A stretch of 30,833 nucleotides of DNA from a virus: IMG/VR virus record IMGVR_UViG_3300035698_001704, positions 1 to 30,833 of that record; one strand, 5' to 3'. Both the position numbers and the translations under genes were made by a program. The notes beneath the pieces are model-generated. The model did no database searches. It worked only from the letters and a program-made list of their open reading frames with translations, and had not been told where the DNA came from. Below, piece after piece: positions 2,731 through 9,647 of this stretch (position 1 is the first letter of the stretch; every line of letters starts with the position of its first letter).

Positions 2731-2748
2731 GTGCACGGAATGCAAACA

Positions 2749-3048
2749 ATGAAAAGCCGCTGCAAGAACGGACATGATCTGAGCATCCTCGGCAGGTTTG
2801 CCAACGGCAACTGCAAGGCCTGCGACAAAGGCGCGAAGAAGCGCCTTCGCGAACGCAAGAACGGTGGACTGCTGAAGCCACCCCGCCCGCTCCCAGGCCC
2901 GCCGAAGTGGGCTATACCCTACATCCTAGAACTAGGTGATCGGATGGACATAGCCCACGGTCAAGAACTCCAGCGACTCAAGGATGAGGCCACCCGCCTC
3001 AGCGTTCTCCCCGCAGACTGCCCACCCCCACCCGTCAAGGTCAGATGA
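2749..3048 (+). CDS. small zinc-finger-like basic protein
   Basis: 99 residues. CKNGHD near the N-terminus and NCKACDKG about 18 residues later make a plausible Cys/His zinc-binding knuckle like those in phage HNH-endonuclease zinc fingers, but no HNH core follows, so nuclease function cannot be claimed. A basic stretch (KKRLRERK) and a proline-rich linker come next. Start uncertain: GTG 2731 and ATG 2740 are in frame upstream; ATG 2749 is preferred because GGAA lies about 9 bases upstream. The stop overlaps the next ATG (ATGA). Confidence 0.6.
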   Translation: MKSRCKNGHDLSILGRFANGNCKACDKGAKKRLRERKNGGLLKPPRPLPGPPKWAIPYILELGDRMDIAHGQELQRLKDEATRLSVLPADCPPPPVKVR

Positions 3049-4877
3049 ATCTAGCTCAAGTCCCAGCCCGAATGTTCAACGGTTCCACCCACCACTTCGA
3101 TGGGTTCATTCCTGTGACGGTGGAGCCTGATGGCCATTGCCATCATAAAAGCAGGGTCATCGGGAGCACCACCGGCGGCTACCGCCGGACGCTCGTCCGA
3201 GCATCCATCCCCCCGCTAACGGGGTCGCGGTCCGTCCAGTCCAGCTCAACCCCAACCGAGCCGGTCATCATGCCGCCCAACCTCAGGAAGATGCTCGGCA
3301 CCCTTGAAGTGAACGGGAGCCCGATGAGCCCCACAGACCTTGATTTGGACGGAGCGTTCATCCACGCGCACTTTCAGCACCGGCTGGGAGCGTTCATGGT
3401 CGATGTCTTCCTTAGTTGGTCGCCCATTCAAGGCTACGTGGCTCTCGGCGAGGCAATGATCACCTTGTCTGATGCATCAGGGTCCTTGGCCGTGACCACA
3501 ACCCCGGACATCAAGATCACCTTCGGCGATGCGGCGCTGCACTCATTGGGCCATGGATGGGGGTCGAAATGCTGGCCGATATCAAGGCGGACCATCAACA
3601 ACGGTCAAGCCATCGCGGCACCCATTGGATTCTTCTGGACGAAGTATCAGGGCATGGACACTCAGAAGGCCATTAACGCCACGTTGCTCTGCGAACGTCT
3701 TGTTGGCGGCTTCGGGATCGTGACCCTGGCCACCGGGAAGCCTACAGACGGCACCGACAAGACAGCGGTCTTCGCGTCCGCCATAGCTGTTCAGGGCGCG
3801 CGCCGCACAGGAACATGGGAACCGCCGGTCATCGGCCCGACAGCGGACAGTTCAGTGACTGGGGATCAGGAGGACCAAGTCTTTGTCCGCGGCGAGATGT
3901 TCACCGAGCCATCCGCCGTTTTGGGCACCTACCTCGCTGGCCTGAAAATGTCCAACCGCCCTTGCCATCACCGAGAAAACGACGGGAAGCAGGTTACATG
4001 GTGGGCCAACCTCGACTGCATCCTGTGGTCCGGCATCCCCCACTTCGATACGAACGTCTCACCGAACCAACTCGGCGTCCCGGCGCGAGCCTACCCAGCA
4101 GGCCAGGGCGGCTGGAGCGGCCCTGACCGTGAGCACAATCTATACGGCACGTTTTGCGCCGCCCTCAAGGCCACCGGCAGCCTATGCCTGGACTTCCTGC
4201 TGAACCATCAGGCGAACAACTTCCTGATGTCCGAGACCGTCCCAAGCTCCCATGGCAACACTTCAACCAACCAGATGGACGCGGCGCGCTCGGTTGGATG
4301 GATGGCCATCATGGCCGTTGACATATACCATCTGCTTCGCAACAGGGCGCTCGCGATGGATGTTGAGGCCAGATGGAAAGCTCGTTGGACAGAGGTCTAC
4401 AAGCCCACGATCGCTGGCCTTGAGCATCACGGTTTCATCTGGGACGTGAGGCTCAACGATCCCAGGCTCGGCGATGGGCTATGGTGGATGCCCTGGCAGC
4501 AATCCATAGGCGCTTACGGCTTGTGGTTGGCCGGAAATACCTTCCTTGTTCCGGAGGCCGTTAGAGAGGCTCTCAGGGCCGCTAAGCAGGTCGTTGATTG
4601 CGACTACGTGAAGCTTCCTGGTGAGACTTGGCGCAACGTGGGGAATCAAAAGCTCCACCCAACCCACCCCGGTGAACCATGGCCGGTAGAGACGTGGATG
4701 GACCCAAGCTATCAGTTTGGACCGACGTGGTTCTTTGCCACCTGGAACGTCCCAGCCCTAGCCATCACCAACGCTAACTCTGAGCCTGGATCAAAGGCCC
4801 GGATCATCTGGGACTCCTCGCACAGCACCCATGACCCTTCCTGGACGCCTCCTATCACCGTCCATCCGCTCGTATGA
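3045..4877 (+). CDS. unknown 610-residue protein, possibly carbohydrate-active or virion-associated
   Basis: Not recognised with confidence. The first ~290 residues look beta-rich. The second half is rich in Trp, His and helical segments, with blocks such as CHHRENDGKQVTWWANLDC, SGPDREHNLYGTF, NHQANNFLM and GLWWMPWQQSIGAYGLWLAG. That resembles the alpha/alpha-toroid domains of polysaccharide lyases and glycoside hydrolases, but this is an impression only. No signal peptide or membrane segment is visible. It is coupled by ATGA overlaps to the zinc-finger gene before and the HxD...H gene after. Its place among early genes, far from the tail module, is unusual for a receptor-binding or depolymerase protein. 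Confidence 0.7.
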   Translation: MNLAQVPARMFNGSTHHFDGFIPVTVEPDGHCHHKSRVIGSTTGGYRRTLVRASIPPLTGSRSVQSSSTPTEPVIMPPNLRKMLGTLEVNGSPMSPTDLDLDGAFIHAHFQHRLGAFMVDVFLSWSPIQGYVALGEAMITLSDASGSLAVTTTPDIKITFGDAALHSLGHGWGSKCWPISRRTINNGQAIAAPIGFFWTKYQGMDTQKAINATLLCERLVGGFGIVTLATGKPTDGTDKTAVFASAIAVQGARRTGTWEPPVIGPTADSSVTGDQEDQVFVRGEMFTEPSAVLGTYLAGLKMSNRPCHHRENDGKQVTWWANLDCILWSGIPHFDTNVSPNQLGVPARAYPAGQGGWSGPDREHNLYGTFCAALKATGSLCLDFLLNHQANNFLMSETVPSSHGNTSTNQMDAARSVGWMAIMAVDIYHLLRNRALAMDVEARWKARWTEVYKPTIAGLEHHGFIWDVRLNDPRLGDGLWWMPWQQSIGAYGLWLAGNTFLVPEAVREALRAAKQVVDCDYVKLPGETWRNVGNQKLHPTHPGEPWPVETWMDPSYQFGPTWFFATWNVPALAITNANSEPGSKARIIWDSSHSTHDPSWTPPITVHPLV

Positions 4878-5425
4878 TCTGGGAAAGCTTTGAATCAGTG
4901 GACCTCGACCAGTTTGGGTCGCGCGCCATCATGGAGTCTGTTAGCCGAGTAGCCCTGCCAGACGGTGCCCGGTGCCCGGATGACGAGACGCTCTGGCAAG
5001 CCCTTGTTGAAGGTGGCGAGGAGAACAACGGGTTGCGTCTGTGGGGTCACGAGGGAGATGTCCCCGACCCCAACGAACCGCGCCCGTTGAACCGGTGTCA
5101 TTGGATCGTGGTTAGGGCATCGACCTGCATCCACAACGATCCGACCTATGGACACTACTGCCATCACCTCAAATTGAGATGCGACCCAGGGACATCGGTT
5201 CGTGGCGTTGAAGACCGCATCCAGATGCATCGCGGGCTCTACTACGTCCTCGACGCCCATGCCCCGCATGAGGTCCAGTCACCGTCAAAGGGTTGGAACT
5301 TCGGCGTATGCCTGGACGCTGACGAGATCCTCCCGCTATCGGATGCCCTTCCCCGGATGATTGAGTTCGCGATGACCGCGCCGATACTTGCTGGCGATTG
5401 TCGAATAAATTGGACAAGGGCTTGA
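4874..5425 (+). CDS. HxD...H double-stranded beta-helix protein, copy A (putative 2OG-Fe(II) oxygenase/cupin-like)
   Basis: 183 residues. The core HWIVVRAST..H87-N-D89..HHLKLR..RGLYYVLDAHAPHEV matches, block by block, the protein at 9144-9647. H87, D89 and a distal His (H129 or H132) have the order and spacing of the Fe(II) facial triad of 2-oxoglutarate dioxygenases and cupins. No clear Arg for 2-oxoglutarate is seen after the distal His, so a cupin or other metal enzyme remains possible. It overlaps the 610-residue gene (ATGA). Compared with copy B it has a different N-terminus and an extra C-terminal tail. Substrate unknown. Confidence 0.65.
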   Translation: MIWESFESVDLDQFGSRAIMESVSRVALPDGARCPDDETLWQALVEGGEENNGLRLWGHEGDVPDPNEPRPLNRCHWIVVRASTCIHNDPTYGHYCHHLKLRCDPGTSVRGVEDRIQMHRGLYYVLDAHAPHEVQSPSKGWNFGVCLDADEILPLSDALPRMIEFAMTAPILAGDCRINWTRA

Positions 5426-5451
5426 CCCGGACAGGGTGAACGTGCGATACT
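5422..5451 (+). promoter_or_regulatory. sigma70-like promoter for a leaderless start
   Basis: TTGACC (5422-5427), an 18-base spacer, then GATACT (5446-5451) preceded by TGC. ATG 5458 follows after 6 bases, so transcription would start at or beside the start codon. A near copy occurs at 14820-14849, including the identical stretch AACGTGCGATACT. Confidence 0.65.
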
Positions 5452-5457
5452 CCTTGC

Positions 5458-5682
5458 ATGACCAATGAAGCCGCAGCCGTCCGCCCCACCCAAGTCCAAG
5501 TAAGCACCAGCGCCTACGAGTTCGCTCATGGCCGCTCCCCCAAGGGCCGGGGCGCATGGGCGTTCGAGGGCGACAATCCCGCCGAACTTTTCTGGCACAA
5601 CGGTCTATACGCTGACGCCCGCCGGGCCGCGAAGAAGCATTTTGCAGCGATGGGCGAGACCCACATTAGTGCGGCTAGCTAG
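5458..5682 (+). CDS. unknown 74-residue protein with probable leaderless start
   Basis: Not recognised. Starts MTNEAAAV; the ATG sits 6 bases after the -10 element, so the mRNA is probably leaderless and there is no room for a Shine-Dalgarno. Aromatic residues and RRAAKKH in the second half suggest a small folded domain (GRGAWAFEG, AELFWHNGLY), perhaps binding nucleic acid. It heads an operon of small genes running to about 7.4 kb. Its first 13 bases (ATGACCAATGAAG) are shared with the gene at 14855. Confidence 0.65.
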   Translation: MTNEAAAVRPTQVQVSTSAYEFAHGRSPKGRGAWAFEGDNPAELFWHNGLYADARRAAKKHFAAMGETHISAAS

Positions 5683-5707
5683 CCAGCACCCCAACCCGAG
5701 GAACGAC

Positions 5708-6046
5708 ATGACAGACAAAAAGAAGCCTGAGAGAGACAGCGACGAGCTGATATTGACCATGATTTCGGAGGCGCTGATTCAGCACAACCGGAACACCGCC
5801 CAAGCGTTCGCTGAGTGCAGCGAACACGGATCGATAGTGGCAGTGGGGGACGGCAACTCTAAAACCGGCAAGCGGTGGATGGTCTGCCTAGTGACCAATG
5901 ATGCCGCCTGCCACCTAGAAGATTGGGTGAAGCAGCAAGCCCTCATGCGTAAGGAAGCATCCGACTCCATCGGAGCCTACTCCACCACCAGGATCATCAC
6001 CCCCGGTAACCCATCGCCCAGCAACGCAGAGGAGTCGCGGAAGTGA
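5708..6046 (+). CDS. unknown 112-residue protein
   Basis: Not recognised. ATG 5708 is chosen because GAGGAA lies just upstream at 5698-5703; the longer frame from 5528 runs through the previous gene. The product has a charged N-terminus (MTDKKKPERDSDEL), a helix, then GSIVAVGDGNSKTGKRWMVCLVTN, which looks like beta strands, and a Ser/Pro-rich tail. Its TGA shares a base with the next ATG. Confidence 0.65.
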   Translation: MTDKKKPERDSDELILTMISEALIQHNRNTAQAFAECSEHGSIVAVGDGNSKTGKRWMVCLVTNDAACHLEDWVKQQALMRKEASDSIGAYSTTRIITPGNPSPSNAEESRK

Positions 6047-6342
6047 TGGATCCCGCAACGAGAGTGTTCGGGCCACTGAAGTGGGACGATGTCAGCTACG
6101 TCTACAGGGACACCCTCGGAGTCATCGCAACCTACGAAGACACCCAGGAGATCACCGTTCGGATTGGCGCCGAACAGCGCCGGGCCAACGTGTCGTCTAT
6201 CCGCAGAGTGGTGCAGGGGTCGAGAATCAGGCGCATGGAGACCAAATACGTGGTCGTGTTCAGGGCGGGCGAACACATGGAGCGTTCCACGATGCACTTG
6301 CCAATTGACTACCCCGGCTTGTTGATCGAGGGACCCGCATGA
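6046..6342 (+). CDS. unknown 98-residue beta-rich protein
   Basis: Not recognised. Alternating strands (YVYRDTLGVIATYED, EITVRIG, TKYVVVFRAGEH) suggest a small beta-barrel. ATG 6046 overlaps the previous stop (TGATG); GTG 6043 is also in frame. The stop overlaps the next small gene (ATGA). Confidence 0.6.
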   Translation: MDPATRVFGPLKWDDVSYVYRDTLGVIATYEDTQEITVRIGAEQRRANVSSIRRVVQGSRIRRMETKYVVVFRAGEHMERSTMHLPIDYPGLLIEGPA

Positions 6343-6482
6343 ACAGGAACGAACTGGCCAGACTGGCCAAGCTCCTAAGGAAAGGTTGCGGACTCCCCGC
6401 CGCCCGAACACTCGCCCTCAAGCTATGGTCGCGCCACCGTGGCGCCTGGAAGTGGAAAGCGAAGGAACTATGGACAACGTGA
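6339..6482 (+). CDS. 47-residue basic peptide, overlapping gene
   Basis: A complete frame (MNRNELARLAKLLRKG...KELWTT) opens with an ATGA overlap on the previous stop and ends 13 bases inside the next gene. It is very basic, with many Arg, Lys and Trp, and mostly helical by composition, so a small nucleic-acid- or protein-binding peptide is possible. The overlap style and lack of other coding sequence here support it being translated; function unknown. Confidence 0.5.
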   Translation: MNRNELARLAKLLRKGCGLPAARTLALKLWSRHRGAWKWKAKELWTT

Positions 6483-6775
6483 CGAAGGTGCTCATCGAAA
6501 GTCTCCGAGAGGAGCTCCGCGTATTGAAGGCCGATGAGAAAGAGAGGCTCGCCGCTGGCGCCTGTCTAGCGAAGGTTGCTCAACTTGCGGTGTCGATCAT
6601 CTACCTGCACTGCATGATTATGGACAAGTGGGCCATCGCCCCTGACGACCCAGAAAACGTGAAGCAGGTAAATGCGTCCATCGAAGACATGAGAGCCATG
6701 GGCAAGCACCTCCTGGTGCTAGACGACATGGTTAAGATGTTTTTACCGCCACCCCCAACCGAGGAAGCCAAATGA
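6470..6775 (+). CDS. unknown 101-residue helical protein
   Basis: Starts MDNVTKVLIESL at ATG 6470 with AAGGA a few bases upstream; the frame extends to TTG 6386 but that region is better explained by the 47-residue gene. N-terminal half is a charged amphipathic helix (SLREELRVLKADEKERL), the middle is hydrophobic (AQLAVSIIYLHCMIM), the end is PPPPTEEAK. The charged helix plus short hydrophobic stretch suggests an oligomerising or membrane-peripheral protein. The stop overlaps the next ATG (ATGA). Confidence 0.6.
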   Translation: MDNVTKVLIESLREELRVLKADEKERLAAGACLAKVAQLAVSIIYLHCMIMDKWAIAPDDPENVKQVNASIEDMRAMGKHLLVLDDMVKMFLPPPPTEEAK

Positions 6776-7134
6776 CTCACCCTGACTTCGCCGAGTGCAA
6801 CGATGACACCCTGAACGGGATCATCAATTCCGTGAAGAAATACGGATGCATCACCCTATACGGCGATGCCGGCAAAGTGACCATCGCGGAGGTCCCTGGC
6901 CCGCCTACCAAGCATGCGGCGCCCCATCTCTCAGAGCCATCGGACGGGTCCATGACCATGGGGGATCAGGTGCTAATGGAGATCCACGAGGAGATCGACA
7001 AGATGGACAGGGAAGCCAAGCTCTGCCAAGAGTCCTCACCGAAGATTCCCTCGACCCCGTTACCGCTGCTTCTCTTCATTCTCATTCTCACCGCTACCTC
7101 TCTGGTCGCGTCCGTTGTCGCTGCTTGGAAGTAG
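6772..7134 (+). CDS. tail-anchored membrane protein of unknown function
   Basis: 120 residues with a soluble, acidic N-terminal domain and one hydrophobic C-terminal segment (about residues 97-118: PLPLLLFILILTATSLVASV) ending AAWK. This is the layout of a single-pass protein anchored by its C-terminus, with the bulk in the cytoplasm. Could be a lysis regulator, exclusion protein or envelope-modifying factor; no family is recognised. Coupled to the previous gene by ATGA. Confidence 0.6.
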   Translation: MTHPDFAECNDDTLNGIINSVKKYGCITLYGDAGKVTIAEVPGPPTKHAAPHLSEPSDGSMTMGDQVLMEIHEEIDKMDREAKLCQESSPKIPSTPLPLLLFILILTATSLVASVVAAWK

Positions 7135-7138
7135 ACCA

Positions 7139-7399
7139 ATGCCCAACCCGCTCCTCGAAATCAAAGTCATCTCTGGCGACGCCGTCGCCGAAGTCCTCCA
7201 GACCATCTCAGTCCATGGCTACGCCAGCCTGGACACTGGCCCCAAGTCACCACCTGTTCAGGTGGTATCCATGGAGGTTCACTTAGCAGCCATGGCGATC
7301 AAGGATCAACAGATCAAGAAGCTGATGCAGAAGCTTCACCCGCCAAAGGTGCCGACACCGCCAAAGGCCGCGATCCCAAAGAAGGGCAAGGGCAAGTAG
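7139..7399 (+). CDS. unknown 86-residue protein with Lys/Pro-rich tail
   Basis: Starts MPNPLLEIKVISG at ATG 7139, five bases after the previous stop. The N-terminal ~50 residues look like a small alpha/beta domain; the C-terminus is basic and proline-rich (PPKVPTPPKAAIPKKGKGK), likely disordered and perhaps DNA-binding. Last gene before the tRNA-like sequence and terminator, so probably the end of this operon. Confidence 0.6.
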   Translation: MPNPLLEIKVISGDAVAEVLQTISVHGYASLDTGPKSPPVQVVSMEVHLAAMAIKDQQIKKLMQKLHPPKVPTPPKAAIPKKGKGK

Positions 7400-7408
7400 C
7401 TCTACCGC

Positions 7409-7490
7409 GGGTCGCGTCCGGTGCGGCCGCTCGGTAAATCTGCCAGCCAGACCCGAGTGGGCCAGGGTTCGAGTCCCTGGCGATCCACCA
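7409..7490 (+). tRNA. tRNA-like sequence with encoded CCA (degenerate tRNA gene or att core)
   Basis: The 3' part is unmistakable: T-arm CAGGG-TTCGAGT-CCCTG, then GCGATCC, A and CCA. The 5' heptamer GGGTCGC (7409-7415) pairs fully with GCGATCC with one G.T. CTCGG (7430-7434) pairs with CCGAG (7453-7457), but encloses an 18-base loop instead of 7, and the D-arm is also atypical. No canonical anticodon can be read. Options: a diverged phage tRNA, a tRNA-like structure with another role, or an attP carrying the 3' half of a host tRNA gene. GTAAATCTGCC (7434-7444) resembles the anticodon-loop/stem side of tRNA-Tyr, and the loop-to-CCA span is the classic att core. Confidence 0.45.
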
Positions 7491-7518
7491 ATCAAGAGAA
7501 CGTGTTGGCCTTCTGTGT

Positions 7519-7558
7519 GGCTCCCCTTCGTGACTGCGGTGGGGGGCCTCTTTCATTT
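7519..7558 (+). terminator. probable intrinsic terminator after the tRNA-like sequence
   Basis: GGCTCCCC (7519-7526) pairs with GGGGGGCC (7541-7548) over 8 bases with one T.G, loop 14, followed by TCTTTCATTT. It would end the 5.4-7.4 kb operon (and the tRNA-like transcript) before the modification-type operon begins. Confidence 0.5.
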
Positions 7559-7573
7559 AGCCGCGCGCGCCGA

Positions 7574-7603
7574 TAGGGTGAGGGGACGAGTGGCGATTGC
7601 CAC
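7574..7603 (+). promoter_or_regulatory. possible -10 element and 5' hairpin of the 7.6-12.0 kb operon
   Basis: TAGGGT at 7574-7579 could be a -10; no convincing -35 is seen. Downstream, GTGGC-GATT-GCCAC (7590-7603) is a perfect 5-base-pair hairpin in what would be the leader of the ParB-like gene and could be an operator or mRNA structure. Confidence 0.25.
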
Positions 7604-7625
7604 ATCACCACCCGAGAGACCAAGG

Positions 7626-8279
7626 ATGGCAAAAGCAAAGATCGCGGCGCAACTCAAGCCGCTGGCAGTCCAGTTGGACAGCCTGAACCCAGACCCCAAG
7701 AACCCGCGGCTTCACACCGCGCGCAACCTGGAAGCCATCGCCGGGAGCTTGAAGAAGTTCGGGCAGGTGAAACCAATCATCGTCCAGAAGAAGGGCATGA
7801 TCGTTCGCGCGGGCAATGGCACCGTGGACGCGGCCAAGTCCCTCGGCTGGAAAGAGCTAGCAGCGGTCATCGTGGACATGACGGACGAGAAGGCGCAGCA
7901 ACTTGCCGTCGCAGACAACCGCACCGCGGAGCTTGCCGATTGGAACCACGAAAACCTCGTGGAACTCATGACCAGTTGGGACGACCTGGACATTCCGGGG
8001 TTCAGCGAAGCAGAGATCAGTGGATTGATGTCATCCATGGATGCTGAGATGGACAACATCACCGGAAGCTCCATGTCCAGCACCCTAGACATCACAGGAG
8101 GCACCGGCACCGTCGCTGGCTACGCTCCGTCGGTTGAGCCGTCAACCCAGGCAGCAGCCACCACCGAGGAGGACGTTGACCGCGCCGCGGCCAAGCTACT
8201 GGAGATGGGCAACAGCAATCAAAGCTCGGTCCCCGTCGTCTGCCCTGAGTGCGCTCACGAGTTCAGGATCCAAGGATGA
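7626..8279 (+). CDS. ParB/sulfiredoxin-fold protein with C-terminal zinc knuckle
   Basis: 217 residues. The N-terminal ParB-like domain shows KNPRLHTARNLEAIAGSLKK (26-45), GQVKPIIVQ (46-54), VRAGNGTVDAAKSLGW (60-75) and the trailing VADNRTAELADW (95-106), the arrangement found in phage ParB-like domains often linked to DNA methyltransferases. No methyltransferase is fused; instead there is a Ser/Thr-rich linker and CPECAHEF at the extreme C-terminus, half of a zinc ribbon. ATG 7626 is used; the frame continues to 7515 but crosses the terminator. First gene of the coupled operon, overlapping the next start by ATGA. Likely role: DNA recognition, nicking or nucleotide-dependent regulation. Confidence 0.75.
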   Translation: MAKAKIAAQLKPLAVQLDSLNPDPKNPRLHTARNLEAIAGSLKKFGQVKPIIVQKKGMIVRAGNGTVDAAKSLGWKELAAVIVDMTDEKAQQLAVADNRTAELADWNHENLVELMTSWDDLDIPGFSEAEISGLMSSMDAEMDNITGSSMSSTLDITGGTGTVAGYAPSVEPSTQAAATTEEDVDRAAAKLLEMGNSNQSSVPVVCPECAHEFRIQG

Positions 8280-8581
8280 GTCCGTCAGGCAAAGAGGTAG
8301 CAAGCCACCTGTCAGACGCTCGGTGGCAGTTCGCGAAGTCCATGGCCTCAATCCCCCATGAGTGGACTCGCCGCAACAGATGGGCAGACAACGACGCCTT
8401 CACGGCAGCAGTCGTCTACGTGCTGGACCCCGCCAACCTGACCAAAGGCTTGTTCAGGGGTCGTCCCTGCGATTACTTCATCCCCGGCGACGGATACCAA
8501 TACTGGTGCTGCATGAAGCCCGGCGACGATCCAGCCCTAGAGTGCATCATCAACCGATCCCTGGTTGGAGCTAGCGCCTAG
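8276..8581 (+). CDS. unknown 101-residue partner of the glycosyltransferase
   Basis: Not firmly recognised. Features: WQFAKSMASIPHEWTRRNRW, then FRGRPCDYFIPGDGYQYWCC and IINRS near the end. The pattern (helical basic N-terminus, then GRP..Y...DG..YW....INR) resembles small phage proteins I associate with glycosyltransferase neighbours, but I cannot name a family. ATGA overlap with the ParB-like gene and TAGTG overlap with the glycosyltransferase imply co-translation and a shared pathway. Confidence 0.65.
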   Translation: MSPSGKEVASHLSDARWQFAKSMASIPHEWTRRNRWADNDAFTAAVVYVLDPANLTKGLFRGRPCDYFIPGDGYQYWCCMKPGDDPALECIINRSLVGASA

Positions 8582-9144
8582 TGGTCCGCTTTATTGTCCA
8601 GGCGATGCCGCAGCGAACGTCCACCGTAGACTACCTGAAAAGGCACATCCCGACGCTCGAAGTCTGTTGGGACCGCCGGAAGTGGGCCTTCGGGACCTTC
8701 ATGGACGCGCTCCGTTTGGCGGACGGTGATCCCTGCGTTCACCTGGAAGATGACATCATCTTGACCGTGGACTTTGTCAGAGAGATCGAGGAGGTCATCG
8801 CCGCGCGGCCGAACGCGCTGATCCAGTTCTTCTCAATGCGTCAGGCGGACTTGACGCAGGGATCAAGGTGGGACCGCAAGTTCGCGATGAACCAATGCTG
8901 GTATTGCCCAGCCGGCTACGGGCCCCGCTTCCTGGCCTATGCGGCGCGATGGATGGCAGACAACCCCGAAGACAAGCAGGGTGGCTACGACACCATGATG
9001 AACGCAGCCCTCAAGGACTGGAAGACGCCCTACTGGCTTCACGTCCCCAGCTTGGTTCAGCACCGCGTAGGCAAGAGCCTCATAGGTCCACGGTCATCCA
9101 AGCGCCAGAGCGCCACATTCATGGCTCCAACGAAGGATTCCTGA
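8581..9144 (+). CDS. GT-A-type phage glycosyltransferase (TET-associated-GT-like)
   Basis: 187 residues, starting at GTG 8581 which shares a base with the previous stop. Begins with a strand (MVRFIVQAMPQR); HLEDDIILT (54-62) carries the acidic EDD that in GT-A enzymes binds the metal/nucleotide-sugar; FFSMR, QCWYCPAGYG and C-terminal PSLVQHRVGKSLIG with RSSKRQSATF follow. This set fits the small glycosyltransferases of phage base-hypermodification clusters better than GT25 or cell-wall enzymes. Expected reaction: sugar transfer from an NDP-sugar to a hydroxylated acceptor; modified DNA base is the obvious candidate given the neighbouring HxD...H protein. Acceptor and sugar are inference. Confidence 0.7.
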   Translation: MVRFIVQAMPQRTSTVDYLKRHIPTLEVCWDRRKWAFGTFMDALRLADGDPCVHLEDDIILTVDFVREIEEVIAARPNALIQFFSMRQADLTQGSRWDRKFAMNQCWYCPAGYGPRFLAYAARWMADNPEDKQGGYDTMMNAALKDWKTPYWLHVPSLVQHRVGKSLIGPRSSKRQSATFMAPTKDS

Positions 9145-9647
9145 TGGACCTGAAGTGGGACGCTGTCATGAAGCCTGAATGGGCGTCGAACCCAGTGGTC
9201 CACCATCAATACGTGGATCTTCCGGACAGTATTCAGACACCATCCACCGAAGACCTACTGAAGACATTCAAGACAGGGGCCTACAAGCTCCAGACCTGGA
9301 AGCGGTCAAAAGACATCACCGGCAAGACGATTCTGGAGAACGACCCGCACTGGATCGCAGTTCGTGGATCGACCCCGCTGCACATAGACCCGCGCTACCC
9401 GCGCTACAGCCATCACCTGAAGCTTCGGGTGGACGAAGGCATCTTGGTCCGTGGTCGCGACAAGGTGGAGCTACAGCTTGTCAGAGGCTTGTTCTACATC
9501 CTGGACACCCACAGCCCTCATCAGGTGCTCGCCCATGACGGTGGCTGGAATGTCGCCGTATCAGTGGACAGCAAGACGATCCTTCCGGCACGCGAGACCA
9601 TCGCTAAGTGTATTCTGTTCGCAGCATCTGAGACGGTGACCCCATGA
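9144..9647 (+). CDS. HxD...H double-stranded beta-helix protein, copy B (putative 2OG-Fe(II) oxygenase/cupin-like)
   Basis: 167 residues, paralogue of the product at 4874-5425. Shared core: HWIAVRGSTPLH80-I-D82, SHHLKLR (89-95), RGLFYILDTHSPHQV (114-128), GWNVAVSVD (134-142). H80/D82 with H123 or H126 form a plausible Fe(II) triad. The N-terminal 65 residues differ from copy A. Start ATG 9144 overlaps the glycosyltransferase stop (TGATG) and its own stop overlaps the IbrA-like gene (ATGA), so it is made together with both. Placed between a glycosyltransferase and a PAPS-reductase-fold enzyme, it could generate the hydroxyl or other group that is then modified; this is inference. Confidence 0.65.
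   Translation: MDLKWDAVMKPEWASNPVVHHQYVDLPDSIQTPSTEDLLKTFKTGAYKLQTWKRSKDITGKTILENDPHWIAVRGSTPLHIDPRYPRYSHHLKLRVDEGILVRGRDKVELQLVRGLFYILDTHSPHQVLAHDGGWNVAVSVDSKTILPARETIAKCILFAASETVTP

Follow-up and report, generated by a model that had tools for sequence, protein, structure and literature searches.

The tRNA-like element at positions 7409-7490 of the window, by which we mean the whole 30.8-kb virus record analysed here, is derived from a tRNA, and we think it probable that a small deletion, of about 9 nt, has inactivated what was a phage tRNA-Tyr gene. It is homologous over its full length to phage tRNA-Tyr, lacks one strand of the anticodon stem and has no canonical anticodon arm. We infer an origin by deletion within a gene that was once intact, a loss of function and the fold described below. 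Its letters read GGGTCGC GT CCGG TGCGGCCGC TCGG TAAA TCTG CCAGC CAGA CCC GAGT GGG C CAGGG TTCGAGT CCCTG GCGATCC A CCA, and the features are as follows.

7409..7415, + strand: acceptor stem 5' strand GGGTCGC, positions 1-7; pairs 7/7 with 7480-7486 and aligns to phage tRNA-Tyr genes
7416..7417, + strand: positions 8-9, G8 and T9; G8 is common to the phage tRNA-Tyr group
7418..7434, + strand: D arm CCGG-TGCGGCCGC-TCGG, 4 bp; from the model alignment and the chance test on acceptor, D arm and GG in 45 nt
7427..7460, + strand: alternative long arm CCGCTCGG...CCGAGTGG, 8 bp, from D-arm and V-arm strands; predicted fold
7434..7444, + strand: GTAAATCTGCC, corresponding to the tRNA-Tyr anticodon GTA, positions 37-38 and the anticodon stem 3' strand; from the alignment to phage tRNA-Tyr
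7439..7451, + strand: residual hairpin TCTG-CCAGC-CAGA, 4 bp with a 5-nt loop, where the anticodon arm belongs; predicted fold
7452..7461, + strand: possible variable (V) arm CCC-GAGT-GGG of the class II tRNA type; from the sequence and from where it lies, after the anticodon region and before the T arm
7463..7479, + strand: T arm CAGGG-TTCGAGT-CCCTG; from the sequence, with a loop that follows TTCRANN
7480..7490, + strand: acceptor 3' strand GCGATCC (7480-7486, including U70 of G3.U70), discriminator A73 (7487) and CCA (7488-7490)
7524..7546, + strand: terminator-like stem-loop with a T-rich tail behind it; weak

The first-pass annotation had described a perfect T arm, discriminator A and CCA, an acceptor stem paired 7 of 7 with one G.T, and an abnormal anticodon arm whose only pairing encloses 18 bases. 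All of this is confirmed: the 7-bp acceptor stem, A73 and CCA are present, the sole G.U of the stem (G.T in DNA) lies at 3:70, and the 18 bases are enclosed by CTCGG (7430-7434) and CCGAG (7453-7457), with room for the 4-bp hairpin TCTG-CCAGC-CAGA inside that loop. The terminator-like hairpin reported behind the element fared less well: the stem at 7524-7546 exists, yet it is one of two such sites in the 1.6 kb scanned, and shuffled sequences give 1.4 +/- 1.3. The interpretation offered with these observations is only partly supported, as set out below.

A first-order Markov background predicts 0.006 occurrences per window, counting both strands, of a perfect T arm followed at the right distance by NCCA, and the same combination with a 7/7 acceptor stem in addition did not occur once in 30 Mb of such background. 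Because this combination is far too rare to arise by chance, the element is tRNA-derived. The tRNA finders are nevertheless silent: ARAGORN called 0 tRNA genes in the window and no Rfam family reached its gathering score for the element. The absent ARAGORN call is by itself weak evidence, since the program also misses several phage tRNA genes that our tRNA-Tyr model finds, including some with a good anticodon arm, such as L088 6319-6394 and L083 1350-1424.

For the assignment to tRNA-Tyr, viral contigs were scanned with patterns for the 3' end, allowing a relaxed T arm, and for the acceptor pair accompanied by a base other than U at position 8. Among the sequences found in this way, phage tRNA-Tyr(GUA) genes form a coherent group characterised by GGRTYGC-GAGCAGC..., G8, CTGTAAATC and a V arm. 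Ten of these class II, G8-type genes (L078, L094, L095, L096, L098, L099, L101, L102, L105 and L107) were aligned and used to build a covariance model, which matches 7409-7490 end to end (model positions 1-87) with 35.7 bits and an E value of 5.7e-7 over the window, while the rest of the window gave no other match up to E 10. When the search was begun at 7434, the T arm alone was recovered with 11.8 bits, so that the 5' half adds much of the model score, part of this gain being the restored acceptor pairing. In the joint alignment the window lacks nine columns, namely the anticodon stem 5' strand with C32 and U33, and continues with GTAAATCTG, which occurs once in the window, from anticodon position 34; the gap lies directly before GTAAATCTGCC. 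The first 8 nt of the element are identical to the L099 tRNA-Tyr, and its 5' half agrees with L078 at 16 of 25 positions. With the group it shares the acceptor GGRTYGC/GCRAYCC, G8, the place of the D arm, GTAAATC, the V arm, the T arm, A73 and CCA. It differs from the group in the missing strand with C32 and U33, in a longer V region and in having G3.U70 where the group has A3-U70 or G3-C70. A lone tRNA-Tyr of the same group is present on other phage contigs.

The resemblance to tRNA-Tyr noticed at first reading is borne out by both the alignment and the ten-gene model, and so is the suggestion of a degenerate tRNA, given the end-to-end match and the missing 5' strand. The isotype itself is not beyond doubt. 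The T arm and the acceptor 3' strand GCGATCC are also seen in tRNA-Lys genes, and the assignment therefore depends mainly on GTAAATCTG and the V arm. The acceptor pair GGGTCGC/GCGATCC recurs in tRNA-Ala(UGC) genes of the phage contigs L085 and L088, and the model matches other tRNA isotypes with similar scores. Among cultured phages, the DNA closest to the 3' part of the element belongs to tRNA-Lys genes (84-87% over about 36-46 nt), and none is similar to the 5400-9200 stretch; exact 3'-half patterns were not found in viral contigs.

The ancestor would have been a phage-borne class II tRNA-Tyr(GUA) gene, and the loss of some 9 nt would have removed the 5' strand of the anticodon stem together with C32 and U33. 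What would remain recognisable are the acceptor stem, the D arm, the 3' half of the anticodon arm, the V arm, the T arm and CCA. Once that strand was gone, the D and V arms could pair with each other and form the long hairpin that the first-pass annotation had seen. Among the predicted folds, the long-arm form, in which D and V strands are paired, lies at -34.9 kcal/mol and dominates the ensemble, compared with -27.9 kcal/mol for a cloverleaf that keeps the D and V arms and the residual 4-bp hairpin. The minimum free energy of the whole element is only modestly better than that of shuffled sequences (z -1.4). The 5-bp anticodon stem and 7-nt loop with U33 of a functional tRNA are lacking; we found in the element neither an anticodon arm of at least 4 bp with a 7-nt loop and U33 nor, in its 5' half, a strand able to pair 5/5 with TCTGC. 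As no anticodon can be presented in a 7-nt loop after U33, the element should not decode. If it is indeed a relic, it is a small, well-resolved example of the breakdown of a tRNA gene in a phage, and it serves as a reminder that genes of this kind go unreported by tRNA finders.

Is the 5' half tRNA as well? We scored 6-7 of 7 acceptor pairs, D-stem pairing and a GG in the D loop within 45 nt, a score designed after the D arm had been seen and built from standard tRNA features only. Of 20000 random sequences, 8 scored at least as high as the element, and so did 9 of the 12196 overlapping 45-mers elsewhere in the window. A different origin is hinted at by the upstream coding stretch 7104-7128, which matches 7410-7434 at 20 of 25 positions and leaves some room for a 5' half that was never tRNA. 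Since 4 of 243 sampled 25-mers of the window have an equally good match within 3 kb, and TCGCGTCCG occurs three times on the strand of the element, this likeness is probably a coincidence. Two further points speak against a relic: the perfect acceptor and T arms exceed what an old one should keep, and the homology resumes at anticodon position 34, a plausible start of an attP core.

On its left the element is flanked by a 94-aa ORF (7115-7399) that has no PHROGs match, on its right by a ParB-like gene whose ATG is at 7626. The record further encodes YqaJ/RecE-like, Erf-like, RusA-like and PAPS-reductase proteins, a terminase and a Mu-type portal. Relatives of the terminase are encoded at 70 loci, with up to about 76% identity in the best segment; a search with the 610-aa ORF gave no relatives. 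We examined 72 loci that contain terminase or ParB homologues, many of which do not span the syntenic place, and neither the element nor an intact version of it was found in any. The deletion is for this reason inferred from distant homologues, and with no examined relative carrying the element there is no evidence of selection. In the relatives L006, L011 and L025 the ParB-like gene directly follows the RusA-like gene. In the window these two genes are separated by about 4.7 kb of mostly unmatched ORFs (2731-7500), with the element at the right edge. The window also contains two paralogous small proteins (4874-5422 and 9135-9644; 39% identity over 147 aa) with a common H-x-DP...HHLKLR pattern and no Pfam family.

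One alternative, which we regard as unlikely, is that the stretch is an attP core that took its 3' half (7434-7490) from a tRNA-Tyr gene of the host, so that integration would rebuild the host tRNA, the pairing of the 5' half being coincidental. The cores of attP sites typically contain the 3' half of a tRNA (PMC10865867). Here, too, tRNA-Tyr homology is at its clearest over the 57 bp that run from anticodon to CCA, as in the cores used by tyrosine integrases; its resumption at position 34 would be explained, and the 30.8-kb record may be a fragment. The element departs from such a core in that its 5' side, which would then not be tRNA-derived, is tRNA-like in both acceptor and D arm; the 7/7 acceptor with a 4-bp D arm and GG, found in only the 8 of 20000 random sequences given above, would be left to chance. 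Neither the record nor 13 related ones, all of which may be fragments, contain a Phage_integrase or Resolvase match, so the search for an integrase proposed at first reading came back empty. The immediate neighbours are the unmatched 94-aa ORF and the ParB-like gene. No left-hand copy of the tRNA 3' end, the mark of an integrated block, was seen. In the public bacterial and archaeal genomes scanned, among which the host may be unsampled, there was no convincing host tRNA match, and the exact 25-nt 3' end was present only in two CPR tRNA-Lys genes. The tRNA-like 5' half and the lack of a tyrosine or serine recombinase in the window or the 13 related records thus speak against the earlier suggestion of an attP core with only the 3' half of a tRNA.

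In place of a broken tRNA-Tyr gene one may also imagine an RNA that is tRNA-like and functional but does not decode: its two ends would be processed, G3.U70 and A73 would let it be charged with alanine, and its targets would be AlaRS, EF-Tu or the enzymes of tRNA processing; we hold this to be improbable as well. G3.U70 is the main determinant of alanine identity, and when put into tRNA-Tyr it leads to alanine acceptance (PMC9976931). By sequence the element has this identity set, G3.U70 with A73, and its only G.U sits exactly at 3:70, so that its intact end could in principle still be charged with alanine. Its acceptor and T arms are perfect, and its acceptor pair is that of the tRNA-Ala(UGC) genes on L085 and L088. 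On the other hand, a single substitution from A3-U70 or G3-C70, both of which occur in the tRNA-Tyr group, suffices to create G3.U70. Relatives show no conservation, the folding z-score is only -1.4, and no sigma-70-type promoter match was detected in 6700-8300, a scan that does not cover phage or read-through transcription. The stronger version, a selected and expressed non-decoding tRNA mimic that receives its alanine from the host AlaRS and, in the infected cell, drains or redirects the functions of alanyl-tRNA (AlaRS, EF-Tu, processing enzymes), we consider highly improbable. Were the G3.U70 acceptor used, an anticodon-less alanylated phage RNA would be new.

Anticodon nucleases recognise and act on the anticodon arm, and as this target arm is absent, a decoy against tRNA-targeting defences, as first proposed, or a substitute for their targets is the least probable reading, with hardly any weight: phage tRNAs have been predicted to be insensitive to such nucleases through mutations in the anticodon loop (PMC10264068), which would favour the idea, but those tRNAs still decode, whereas the element lacks the arm that both nuclease and substitute need.

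Among known RNAs, Rfam with relaxed thresholds around the element returned mascRNA-menRNA as the best sub-threshold match (19.5 bits), and tRNA-Sec with 15.3 bits. Like the element, mascRNA-menRNA (RF01684) is a small tRNA-like RNA with no decoding role; membership in this family is ruled out by its gathering score of 42.5. A tmRNA was considered on account of L080, a contig from the pattern scans, and around the element Rfam gave no tmRNA family with an E value of 10 or less. L080 itself is a phage contig that carries a permuted tmRNA (RF04321, 75.5 bits) at 4435-4643 on the - strand, and, letter for letter, its acceptor strands GGGTCGC and GCGATCC are identical to those of the element.

tRNA-like genes that are sound in their acceptor and T halves but odd in between are found repeatedly in phages. 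On the - strand of L110 (11628-11718) and L115 (12730-12820), a tRNA-Tyr-like gene within a phage tRNA array is not called by ARAGORN; its D region is shortened and may pair with the long variable region. The related phage contigs L077 (10664-10735, + strand) and L092 (8521-8596, - strand) carry, next to and after the terminase gene, an atypical tRNA-Ala-like gene. Like the element, it is the only tRNA-like gene in its stretch, with a G3.U70 acceptor, a perfect T arm, CCA and a canonical anticodon arm that is poor or absent; unlike the element, it is of the tRNA-Ala(UGC) type. The two copies are distinguished by a single 4-nt repeat unit and a single base in the T loop, and the remaining intergenic stretch is nearly identical.
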